Positions 57,709 to 61,493 of a DNA stretch of 64,000 nt are shown piece after piece. Location of the stretch: assembly GCA_945871915.1 (NCBI GenBank), contig CAMBXO010000002.1, positions 124,001 to 188,000 on the forward strand, written 5' to 3'. The notes beneath the pieces were generated by a model that saw only the letters and a program-made list of their open reading frames with translations, was not told the DNA's origin and did no database searches. The position numbers were made by a program, and so were the translations under genes. The DNA is from Singulisphaera sp. GP187. Its GTDB lineage: Bacteria; Planctomycetota; Phycisphaerae; Phycisphaerales; SM1A02. The number at the start of each line of letters is the position of its first letter. Position 1 is the first letter of the stretch.

Positions 57709-58179
57709 ATGCGAAGTCGATCTGCATGTTTCATGGCGTGCCTCGCTCTGGTGGCATGGACGGCTGTCAACGCCGGTTGCATTGCAAAGGTCGCCCGAAT
57801 AGGGAAACTTCTTTCACCTGGCGAGCCTGAGACCATTATGGAGAGCGATGTAGGTGCGCCGCCCGACATGGAGAGCCGCCACTCGGAAAACATTGAATTG
57901 AAGGGCGAGACGCTGGCAACGGGCCGCTTTACCTTTCGAGGAAGGATTGAAGAAACCGACTCGTTTGCACAAGAGATCAACGAGCGATATCAGGAACGCG
58001 GCTGGAAACTTTTACGCAGTGAGATCGATCCCACGCATGGCCGTTTGTATTACGAGAAGGACACGCGACTGGTCGAAGTGAATTTCAAGAACAATCCGAT
58101 CAACCCGTCGATGTCGCAGGCAACGGTAATGGTGGGGCCGATTCCTGCACAGCCTGCTCCTGTTGGCCCTTCCACATAG
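57709..58179 (+). CDS. Small exported lipoprotein-like protein, function unknown
   Basis: A 156-residue protein. The N-terminus (MRSRSACFMACLALVAWTAV) ends in NAGC at residue 24, a lipobox-like site although the -3 residue is Asn. The body has TFRGRIEETDSFAQEINERY and RGWKLLRSEIDPTHGRLYYE, an alpha/beta pattern I do not recognise. The frame opens at 57622, inside murJ. The last 80 bases overlap the ParA-type gene on the other strand. Confidence 0.68.
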   Translation: MRSRSACFMACLALVAWTAVNAGCIAKVARIGKLLSPGEPETIMESDVGAPPDMESRHSENIELKGETLATGRFTFRGRIEETDSFAQEINERYQERGWKLLRSEIDPTHGRLYYEKDTRLVEVNFKNNPINPSMSQATVMVGPIPAQPAPVGPST

Positions 58180-58981
58180 CCACAATGCTTTGGGCCACGC
58201 GCCGATAGTCCTCGGCTCCGGGACACTTGCTGTCATAGTCAAAGATGGTCTTGCCGAAACTCGGCGCTTCCGCCAACTTGATGTTGCGACGAATCGGTGG
58301 CTGCAGCAGTTGACAGTGCCGCCACGGAACATCGGTGCCTCGGAATGACTCAAGGTGAGAGTGAATTTCCTCGACCACGGCCTTGCCATGACTCGAGAGC
58401 GTTTCATGCATACACAGGATCACCCCGCTGCAGACAAGTTGCGGGTTCAGACCCGCGGCAACCAACTGCACCGTTTCAAGCAGTTTTTCAAGGCCTCGCA
58501 GTGCAAGATAGTGCGCCTGCATTGGAACAATGACTTCGTTCGCGGCGGTGAGCGCGTTCACGCTGAGTACGCCAAGACCCGGTGGGCAATCAAGCAGAAT
58601 GCAATCGAATCGCGTGTGCAATGGTGCGAGTGCGTTTCGCAACACACTTTGCACATCCGGACGCCCCGCCAGTTCACCTTCCACGAGGGCCAATTCTGTA
58701 TCGGCCGGAATAAACGAAAGACCTGGCCGCGCTTCGACCACGCAGTCCCAAGCCGTGGCTGGTGGATCCGCAAAGAGCGAACTGGTACTCGGTCGCCCTT
58801 CATCGGTTTCCACTCCAAAGTGCAGGGAGAGATTGGACTGCGGATCCAGATCAACCAACAGGGTTCGAAGTCCGGACTCCGCAAGTGCCGCACCCAGATT
58901 GACCGTTGTGGTGGTCTTCCCAACTCCGCCCTTCTGATTTAACAGAGCGACGGTGCGAGTGGCGGGTGTGGTCGCGGACAT
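58100..58981 (-). CDS. ParA/Soj-family ATPase
   Basis: A 293-residue MinD/ParA-type ATPase. The deviant Walker A is KGGVGKTT (17-24), with the signature lysine. Walker A' is LLVDLDPQSNLSLHFG, and FDCILLDCPPGLGVLSVNAL is the switch region. PIRRNIKLAEAPSFGKTIFD is typical of chromosomal ParA/Soj. No parB gene lies next to it in this window. The tail is Gln/Pro-rich. The frame open to 59023 is upstream of the usual start; ATG 58981 is used. 80 bases overlap the lipoprotein gene tail to tail. Confidence 0.9.
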   Translation of the reverse strand: MSATTPATRTVALLNQKGGVGKTTTTVNLGAALAESGLRTLLVDLDPQSNLSLHFGVETDEGRPSTSSLFADPPATAWDCVVEARPGLSFIPADTELALVEGELAGRPDVQSVLRNALAPLHTRFDCILLDCPPGLGVLSVNALTAANEVIVPMQAHYLALRGLEKLLETVQLVAAGLNPQLVCSGVILCMHETLSSHGKAVVEEIHSHLESFRGTDVPWRHCQLLQPPIRRNIKLAEAPSFGKTIFDYDSKCPGAEDYRRVAQSIVAMWKGQQEQAVQESAPPLPLPATSTG

Positions 58982-59087: not shown

Positions 59088-59774
59088 TCACGCAGCAACC
59101 ACCGGTTCATGTTCAAGCGTGGCCACCTCTTGAATGTGCAGGAGTTTCAGTGTCTGGTCGACGGATTGCCCAACTGGATTCAGCCACGAATCCATGACAT
59201 CACGCCGCAAGAAAATGGGGCATCGGTCATGGCCTGCGGCAAGCACCTCCGCTGGCGGGTCGCCAGTAATCACCGCGAAGGATGTGATGGATTCCGACAG
59301 AACAGGTGCCACCCAATGATCAAAGAGAACGGGGCACCACATCACGTCGCGGCCGAGTGGCCCAAACGACACAAGGTTTTTCTTACCCGTCTGGCGATCC
59401 ACCACCCACTCGAAGAATCGTTCGAAGACCAGAAGGCCATGATTTTTTTGAAGCAGTGGTTTCCATGTGCGCCGCGTACGCAGCGCGTCCAACCTTGCAT
59501 TAAATAAATTGTATTTTGAAGGAAGTTCGTCATGCGACCAATGCGGATGCACGCGATACCGCATGGGCGAGACAACTCTCTTGCCGTCGTGCCATGTGAT
59601 GATCGGCGCCCAATCATTTGGAAAAATCCGTGCGTTCGTTTCCAGTGGCTTAAAGTGTTTGGCATCCGCCGCGGATCGAGCCGCATACGCCGCAAATGCT
59701 TCGTGCATGGGCGTTGCGCCAAACAAGGCCTCGATGCGACTGAGATCTTGGACAACTTTGAGGGAGAAGCAGAT
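59088..59774 (-). CDS. SRAP/YedK-family abasic-site crosslinking protein, apparently with an ATC start codon
   Basis: HMCES/YedK proteins form a thiazolidine crosslink with abasic sites in ssDNA through Cys2. From ATC 59774 the product is 228 residues and begins with C2 (MCFSLKVVQDLSRIEALFGA). The other active-site residues are present: N92 (FNARLDA), E122 (FFEWV), H182 (GHDRCPIFL). The next ATG/GTG/TTG in frame is TTG 59726, which would remove Cys2. An in-frame TGA, the stop of the upstream gene, lies 3 bases before ATC. GAGG at 59784-59781 is 6 bases upstream. I infer initiation at ATC aided by coupling; a sequencing error (ATG read as ATC) is the main alternative. Confidence 0.8.
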   Translation of the reverse strand: MCFSLKVVQDLSRIEALFGATPMHEAFAAYAARSAADAKHFKPLETNARIFPNDWAPIITWHDGKRVVSPMRYRVHPHWSHDELPSKYNLFNARLDALRTRRTWKPLLQKNHGLLVFERFFEWVVDRQTGKKNLVSFGPLGRDVMWCPVLFDHWVAPVLSESITSFAVITGDPPAEVLAAGHDRCPIFLRRDVMDSWLNPVGQSVDQTLKLLHIQEVATLEHEPVVAA

Positions 59775-59777
59775 GGG

Positions 59778-61493
59778 TCACCTCACGGGTGGAACGCTGG
59801 TGTCGGCCGTCTTGTCCTGCGGCGGAGCTGCCTGAGTTGCACTCCACCAACCCGATGGATCAAGTGCCAAGAGAGGAATAGGCGTAAACGGCGGCACGGA
59901 AAGACCCGCGCATTGTCGCGTGCCAGAGCCCCCAGGCGAACGAGCAACACCAAGAAGCAACACGCTTGACATGCCCGGTTCACGCGATGCACTGTTGGCA
60001 TCCGCTCGCTCACACCATTCAGCGGGCAACTCAATGACGCACCGCCAGCGATCGGCAAATGTGCTTCGATGAATGGTCGGCTTTGGAAGTTCACCGAGAC
60101 CCTCCACGATTGGTTCGCCCTGCTCTCGCACTCGAATGCGGGCGATGCCTCGACTTGTTTCACCCACCAGCACTTCGAGTTCATCCAATTCAGTTTCTCG
60201 CGGACGAAGGCACTCGGCAAAAATCTCCCACACGCCAAATCGCCGCCGCAGACTCGCCGTGGATCGCCACTCCTGAGGCGGAGCCGTCACGCGACCTCGC
60301 TGAGCATCGGCAAGAGAAAGCGATGGAAGAAGTAACCCCACGCCGAGGCCTGGTGGACGAGGAGTGACAAGACCGGCACCAACCGGAAGCCGCCGCTTCC
60401 ACTCTTTCCATTGCAAGAGCAGCGTGCCGGAGATCGGCGACGCGCTGCGTGTGATGAGGTCTGGCATCAATTCAGGTGGCCGCTCCATGGTCTGGCGACC
60501 AATGCCATGTGCGGGAACGCGCATGGCCAACGGCGGCATGGCTGGACTCTCCATCCATGACAACATGACGATCGCTTCTTCGCTTGTTGGATTTGCTGCA
60601 ACCACGCGAACCGAACTTCCGTCATCACCTTCAACCCAGCACATCAGTGGTGGTTGAGCCCGCAACCACGTAAGGGCTCCGTCCATCACTTGCTCCTCCG
60701 AACGGCTTCGGTCCACCAGCAAACTAAGCAACGCCGAGAGATCGTCGCTCTTGGCAATCCATGCCGCAATGCGAACCTCAAGTTTGCCCTGCGTTTCGCT
60801 GCAGACCGCGGTGAGACGCTCCCGAAGTTCGTTGGCCACACCCGGACTGACTCGCTCCACTCGATCCAACCCTGCTCGCCAGAGTTGCCCGCGATGCAGC
60901 GCGAAACGCTGTGAGACCTCGTCACCCGTCGGCGCGGGGGGCTGCAATCCCGCAGCTTCCGCAAGAAGCCACCATCGAAACCATTCGGATGGAGCAATGG
61001 GATCGGGTTGTTCCTGCTGAGCGTTGGCTGAAATGTGTAACTGCGGACGATCCACAAACGGAAGAGGGTCGACCAGTTCGAGCCACGCGGGATCAACCGT
61101 GCCACTTCCAAGTTGCAGTGGGCCACTCACATCGATTGGCATGTTGGCCATCAGAACAACCGTTCCAGTTTGTTCTGGCGGCGCTCCGGATGGCGCACGA
61201 GCGATCGGTCGAATGTCCAGTTGCTCATCGCTGCGAGTCCATGATCGTTCAACCGACGGCACCGCCGACGCAACCCATCCAATAACGCCATCAATCGGCC
61301 GACCACCATCCGTGCGTTGCAGTGCGATCGAGTCAGGCCACTCGGTTCGGCCACAACCGTTGAGCGGCAACACCAACATGCCACCGCGCGCTGCGGCCGG
61401 TCGATTCATGGCAGGTGTAATGTCTCCAGCATGTACCGCCTGCACCAGAAGCAGTGCAACCACGGCGGCGGGCCGAAATGAATGCGGGTTCAT
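59778..61493 (-). CDS. Large secreted protein, function unknown
   Basis: A 571-residue protein with signal peptide (FRPAAVVALLLVQAVHA) and no match I recognise. It is Pro/Arg/Trp-rich with beta-type segments (GKLEVRIAAWIAKSDDLSAL, GRVTAPPQEWRST, RRFGVWEIFAECLRPRETEL). The C-terminal part (SVLLLGVARSPGGSGTRQCA and LLALDPSGWWSAT) resembles an exported beta-sandwich. The start overlaps the upstream gene's stop (ATGA) and the stop is 3 bases from the SRAP start. Confidence 0.7.
   Translation of the reverse strand: MNPHSFRPAAVVALLLVQAVHAGDITPAMNRPAAARGGMLVLPLNGCGRTEWPDSIALQRTDGGRPIDGVIGWVASAVPSVERSWTRSDEQLDIRPIARAPSGAPPEQTGTVVLMANMPIDVSGPLQLGSGTVDPAWLELVDPLPFVDRPQLHISANAQQEQPDPIAPSEWFRWWLLAEAAGLQPPAPTGDEVSQRFALHRGQLWRAGLDRVERVSPGVANELRERLTAVCSETQGKLEVRIAAWIAKSDDLSALLSLLVDRSRSEEQVMDGALTWLRAQPPLMCWVEGDDGSSVRVVAANPTSEEAIVMLSWMESPAMPPLAMRVPAHGIGRQTMERPPELMPDLITRSASPISGTLLLQWKEWKRRLPVGAGLVTPRPPGLGVGLLLPSLSLADAQRGRVTAPPQEWRSTASLRRRFGVWEIFAECLRPRETELDELEVLVGETSRGIARIRVREQGEPIVEGLGELPKPTIHRSTFADRWRCVIELPAEWCERADANSASREPGMSSVLLLGVARSPGGSGTRQCAGLSVPPFTPIPLLALDPSGWWSATQAAPPQDKTADTSVPPVR

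Follow-up and report, generated by a model that had tools for sequence, protein, structure and literature searches.

A SRAP gene with a predicted AUC start codon behind an extended Shine-Dalgarno sequence, and its counterparts in Bdellovibrionota

In a 2013 analysis of the SRAP domain the cysteine is described as invariably second (PMC3765255), and in YedK Met1 is reported to be removed, so that Cys2 becomes the extreme N-terminus needed for the crosslink (PMC9436759). In the window, the 64,000-nucleotide stretch of DNA analysed here, a SRAP (YedK-like) gene on the minus strand carries ATC directly before the codon for this cysteine, which raises the question of where and how its translation starts. 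The reading that we favour, with a probability of roughly 0.82, is that this is a working SRAP gene for abasic-site crosslinking, translated from AUC with the help of an extended Shine-Dalgarno (SD) sequence.

The SRAP gene and its start site

The minus strand reads GTGAGG TGA CCC ATC TGC TTC TCC around the site, the upstream gene closing with GTG AGG TGA and its frame running on, past this stop, into that of SRAP. CCC is the sole codon between the in-frame TGA and ATC, and no ATG, GTG or TTG lies upstream of ATC in the frame. The first canonical codon downstream, a TTG, corresponds to residue 17 and the next, an ATG, to residue 23; all canonical codons thus lie past the cysteine and none can yield a protein that begins with it, so that the cysteine is second after the start only if ATC is the start. 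The earlier note, made from the letters of this DNA, had placed ATC directly before the catalytic TGC, with an in-frame TGA three bases 5' of it and a GAGG six bases away, and had pointed out that a start at TTG 59726 would remove the active cysteine. All of this is borne out to the base (Table 1), with GAGG at 59784-59781 and TGA at 59780-59778. The source is a draft assembly of 20 contigs, and the window ATC is a single sequence.

Table 1. Features of the SRAP locus in the window, and positions of a tandem repeat at related loci
Feature	Position	Strand	Evidence or remark
ParA-like ATPase gene, downstream of SRAP	58100..58981	-	family match; locus search from 58978
SRAP (YedK-like) CDS, 228 codons + stop, from ATC	59088..59774	-	translation; Pfam PF02586; pLDDT 92.2, SRAP fold
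Active-site His182 codon	59229..59231	-	82/83 aligned genes, one gap; YedK His160 equivalent
Active-site Glu122 codon	59409..59411	-	83/83 aligned genes; YedK Glu105 equivalent
Active-site Asn92 codon	59499..59501	-	83/83 aligned genes; YedK Asn75 equivalent
TTG, first canonical in-frame start downstream, residue 17, beyond Cys2	59724..59726	-	
Catalytic Cys2 codon TGC	59769..59771	-	C in 83/83 aligned genes
Proposed start ATC	59772..59774	-	ATT/ATC at the equivalent place in 12 other SRAP genes
Extended SD GAGGTGA, holds the upstream gene's TGA, 3 nt before ATC	59778..59784	-	7-nt match, -13.8 kcal/mol (14-nt anti-SD)
Upstream gene, 571 aa, TGA ends 3 nt before ATC	59778..61493	-	no Pfam/NCBIfam match at E 0.001
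ACTTACGCAA tandem repeat	L045:2963-2984, L047:2864-2885, L049:2963-2984, L065:2963-2984, L125:1266-1287, L142:789-810		

The product is assigned to the SRAP family by the PF02586 profile (E 3.1e-27, 96 bits, above the curated cut-off of 27.1). The active-site residues N92, E122 and H182, which the earlier note had described as intact, are indeed present, and together with C2 they are conserved in an alignment of 83 MCF/MCY genes as listed in Table 1. The structure predicted for the window protein, built with 26 relatives, has a mean pLDDT of 92.2 and a pTM of 0.90; its top PDB matches are BT_1218, human HMCES and E. coli YedK, and all 21 matches with E <0.001 are SRAP chains, either HMCES, YedK or 2f20, 1zn6, 2bdv and 2aeg, the last four having been assigned to the SRAP family (PMC3765255). 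The window protein thus resembles E. coli YedK and the SRAP domain of human HMCES in its fold and in its Cys2, Asn, Glu and His active site, but differs from them in sequence (16-22% identity over the aligned structures) and is of the MCFS type, which is found in Bdellovibrionota. These features predict a functional SRAP protein, expected to lose its Met and to crosslink to abasic DNA.

The GAGGTGA preceding ATC matches the complement of the 16S tail over 7 nt, the genome's own 16S end being TGGATCACCTCC (the 16S-tail pattern was matched in 5 of 15 genomes). Matches of this length or more, within 12 nt, are seen at 0.21% of the positions in the window, and none of the starts of 45 long open reading frames in the window reaches one; by looser pairing, -13.8 kcal/mol is attained at 2/45 of their first starts, or 6/45 if the best start is chosen. 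With a 14-nt anti-SD, this pairing is the strongest among 169 SRAP genes, whereas with a 10-nt anti-SD four MCF genes have a stronger SD. Two traits of the infC-type genes discriminated by IF3 are found in the window gene: an extended or strong SD, here GAGGTGA, and an AUU, AUC or AUA start, here ATC, as every canonical alternative would cost the protein its Cys2.

Among MCF genes as a group, pairing with the anti-SD is stronger in the 12 with ATT/ATC than in the 41 with ATG (medians -8.15 vs -4.5 kcal/mol, p 3.3e-4; p 0.002 with the 14-nt anti-SD), and the longest exact match is longer (5.5 vs 4 nt, p 4.2e-4), all three p values being calculated with relatedness ignored. Over five independent pairs, 3.2 agree with this trend and 0 run against it, too small a sample for significance.

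Start codons of other SRAP genes

The codon preceding Cys2 was read in 175 distinct SRAP genes, which represent part of the matches (30 loci, 29 new ones from the phylum search, loci from two further listings and 80 regions); sampling is uneven and the named relatives are mostly metagenome assemblies. Six genes were dropped, four because a wrong Cys had been taken and the correct one follows ATG (L010, L172, L186 and L187), and two because the N-terminal Cys is unsettled (L092, CGG, and L197, GTG; were these readings correct, the tally would gain a CGG and a GTG). Loci L064, L068, L082, L164 and L207, the last of which reads MCAKYG, were also left out of the count. In the 169 readable genes the codon is ATG in 150, GTG in 6, ATC in 8 (window included) and ATT in 5; ATA, TTG, CTG, ACG, AAG and AGG were found in none. 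ATT or ATC occurs in 12 of the 54 MCF-type genes (window included) and in 1 of the 22 MCA-type genes, against 0 of the 57 MCG-type genes, which are mostly from the window's own phylum, and in the MCF, MCY and MCA genes taken together it is commoner (13) than GTG (3). The 12 genes other than that of the window are all from Bdellovibrionota, the phylum of G181 (the genome of L045). Seven of the 13, including the window gene, have no in-frame ATG, GTG or TTG upstream; the other six do, which weakens those six individually. The MCA-type gene, L182 (G798, Bdellovibrionota), has its ATC behind GAGG and an in-frame GTG four codons upstream. Two further SRAP matches contain one in-frame stop each (G133:C122:4365-5009, TGA; G752:C123:14219-14752, TAA) and probably represent errors or copies in decay.

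When start codons are mapped onto a maximum-likelihood tree of the 83 MCF/MCY proteins, eight changes are required to account for the ATT/ATC state (12 rows), at least five of which are forced by branches with support of at least 95. The tree omits the MCA, MCG, MCN, MCV and MCS types, hence the absence of the ATC gene L182, as well as two short rows that both have ATG. Within one close pair the starts differ (L047, ATT; L051, ATG; support 88). The window row groups, with support 90, with L036 (ATG), L041 (GTG) and two further ATG rows and is set apart from the rest of the ATT/ATC genes; its ATC is therefore best read, on this topology, as a separate event, although none of the sets starred on the tree holds it. 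L036 is the nearest relative found (52% identity to the window gene). Random errors would have had to hit 2 of the 9 single-base neighbours of ATG each time, for which the odds over the five forced events and the MCA case are ~1e-4. As random errors would also give codons other than ATT and ATC, the only ones seen besides ATG and GTG, the choice between a rare AUC start and a wrong base, left undecided in the earlier note, now leans towards AUC.

Two other genes served as controls. The product of glmS likewise requires a Cys directly after the start. This gene is present in 121 of 125 genomes of the order of G181 (E 1e-60), and its start is ATG in all 70 cases read there (30 loci and 40 regions), eight genomes with an ATT/ATC SRAP gene among them. 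The second control, infC, is present in all 13 genomes searched for it, namely the 12 with the other ATT/ATC SRAP genes and that of the window. In nine of the 12 (L284-L291 and L295, from Bdellovibrionota), the interval from the upstream stop to the conserved domain is free of ATG, GTG and TTG, and an SD-like stretch is followed by ATT, ATC or ATA (an ATH codon); the gene of G181, one of the nine, is a short, weak match. A canonical codon is kept in the other three: L283 has an ATH codon after the SD plus ATG, while L292 and L293 have TTG and GTG, with no ATH codon after the SD. Two consecutive Ile codons follow the SD in L284, L286, L289 and L291. In the window genome, infC has ATT after AAGGA, but there is a TTG upstream of it as well, and an ATG ten codons further on, so that this gene is only consistent with an ATH start.

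Origin of the locus and competing explanations

The partners of SRAP in SOS operons (umuCD, imuAB, dnaE2, dinB, lexA and ku) are absent among the two direct neighbours of the window gene. In 13 of the 14 other parA loci of the same genus (L298-L310), a homologue of the upstream gene lies directly beside parA and SRAP gives no match; at the remaining locus, L297, the flank lacks this homologue, and one congener genome has no parA match. A SRAP gene between the two is found only in the window's species, among 14 parA loci showing both flanking genes, and a tblastn search with the window SRAP found no homologue in 15 other genomes of the genus. One of the congeners, G106, has a different SRAP gene, of the MCNR type and with an ATG start. 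The 446-base gap of G105 was searched for a SRAP remnant and gave chance-level matches only. The 13 loci without SRAP and the tblastn result make acquisition from outside the genus, with insertion between the upstream gene and parA, the probable origin of the gene; its loss in the congeners is conceivable. Since its G+C content (54.6%, and 59.0% at third positions) is in line with that of its neighbours, the gain would not be recent.

Searches for a source covered samples drawn from the larger class and phylum. Within the class, 2 of 396 other genomes match at E 1e-15, in three places, at 29% identity and all with MCGRY and ATG; within the phylum, 106 of 392 genomes match (own included), the best other at 34% identity. 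Viral contigs gave a single 14-residue match to the window SRAP, phages three matching records (<30% identity in the two kinds listed), and plasmids 139 records, all <60% identical, the 20 listed being at 37-39%. The nearest named relatives nearly all carry the labels of Bdellovibrionota groups, L036 and L041 being placed in Oligoflexales.

In the favoured reading, AUC would be read by the initiator fMet-tRNA despite a mismatch at the third base, as happens with the AUU, AUC or AUA start of infC, while the long SD match GAGGTGA would hold the 30S subunit on this weak codon; ribosomes ending the upstream gene, whose UGA lies within the SD match, may feed the SRAP start. The expected outcome is a low, IF3-sensitive output of SRAP, and Cys2, freed by the removal of Met1, would serve as the nucleophile towards abasic sites in single-stranded DNA. 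It would be plausible for a protein with a covalent mode of DNA binding to be held at a low standing level. It is highly improbable that base 59772 is instead a sequencing or assembly error and that the organism has ATG: the draft state of the assembly and the ATG of L036 fit such an error, but the 12 other genes with ATT/ATC, the restriction to these two codons besides ATG and GTG in 169 genes, and the stronger SDs of the group, which an error does not predict, argue against it. The ATC/ATT codon looks like a recurring weak translation start rather than a sequencing slip. We give just as little credence to a start lost by mutation, which would leave a pseudogene, or one that makes nothing but inactive protein from TTG 59726. 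As SRAP is missing at this locus in the congeners, the gene may be dispensable, but its 228-codon frame is intact, the active-site residues are present, the predicted SRAP fold is confident, ATT/ATC starts occur in several lineages, and the strongest SD of 169 (-13.8 kcal/mol, 14-nt anti-SD) would be unexpected in a decaying gene.

A closer contender, still rather unlikely in our view, is that AUC is used solely by re-initiation, SRAP being strictly coupled to the translation of the upstream gene. In its favour, 3 nt separate the upstream stop from ATC and this stop forms part of the SD match; noncanonical starts after termination have been described with inactive ribosome recycling factor (PMC2268962) and are also reported as leak expression (PMC4648390). 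On the other hand, re-initiation in E. coli is reported to fall with excess IF3, the effect being smaller where an SD is present (PMC2268962), and none of the other 12 ATT/ATC genes has an upstream frame of at least 90 codons ending within -80..+30 of the start, against 36 of 91 ATG genes. ATT/ATC starts in the SRAP family therefore need no coupling, so that re-initiation after the upstream stop, proposed in the earlier note, may apply to the window gene and is ruled out as their general cause. Read-through of the stop into a fusion protein was rejected by reasoning, as the Cys would then not be N-terminal. A long shot is that the weak start serves the chemistry, part of the SRAP being born Cys-first, independently of deformylase and methionine aminopeptidase, with the IF3 level setting the share. 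In purified translation of AUU with fMet-tRNA (anticodon CAU) and 1.5 uM IF3, 31.1% full-length peptide was reported, the rest lacking fMet after re-initiation at codon 2; with the CAU anticodon, that test covered AUU and left out AUC (PMC10158994). The ATG start of glmS in 70/70 cases, whose product also needs a free Cys, speaks against such a role. The native leader of the window SRAP gene (GAGGTGACCCATC, GAGGTGACCC) includes the end of the upstream gene.

Relation to known noncanonical starts and an upstream repeat

The classic AUU-start gene is infC, and to our knowledge few bacterial genes start at AUU, AUC or AUA. IF3 is described as repressing starts other than AUG, GUG and UUG, infC being the known case and the GTC of sigR another (PMC5472188). 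The window SRAP gene shares with infC, which is reported to be repressed by IF3 (PMC5472188), an ATH start behind a good SD; infC is autoregulated, its product reading the codon, whereas SRAP has no such loop. In S. aureus, infC and ccpN (AUA) and cvfC1 (AUU) are reported to start with extended SDs (PMC13009471), and the conserved noncanonical start combined with an extended SD in ccpN and cvfC1 resembles the SRAP case. These two encode a repressor and a small protein and their starts were mapped by ribosome profiling, whereas that of SRAP is fixed by the catalytic Cys. The sigR gene of Streptomyces is, like SRAP, a stress-response gene, with an IF3-repressed noncanonical start (PMC5472188), but this start is GTC and not ATC or ATT, and it was reported in Streptomyces, whereas the SRAP state arises repeatedly on the tree. 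A survey of 61,358 ancestral AUG starts gave one switch to AUU (PMC5622118). That ATT/ATC is commoner than GTG, has originated repeatedly and coexists with a glmS that stays ATG suggests that weak, IF3-sensitive synthesis has been selected for in a protein that attaches covalently to DNA. No report of a noncanonical start of a SRAP gene was found among the titles and abstract openings listed in searches of an open-access library. Gene finders restricted to ATG, GTG and TTG miss AUU, AUC and AUA starts; SRAP is a natural reporter, since Cys2 fixes the start and noncanonical starts can be counted from DNA alone, and the size of the IF3-discriminated gene set becomes directly testable.

A repeat was observed upstream of 17 of the 83 MCF/MCY genes, in either orientation, consisting of two copies of ACTTACGCAA (at most two mismatches each) with an exact 11-bp period. 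The window SRAP gene is without it, and a copy with at most one mismatch was found in none of the 57 MCG genes. The tandem repeat is present in 8 of 12 ATT/ATC genes and in 9 of 71 others (Fisher, 1.9e-4); on five independent pairs its relation to the start codon is not significant. This repeat may be a transcriptional operator.
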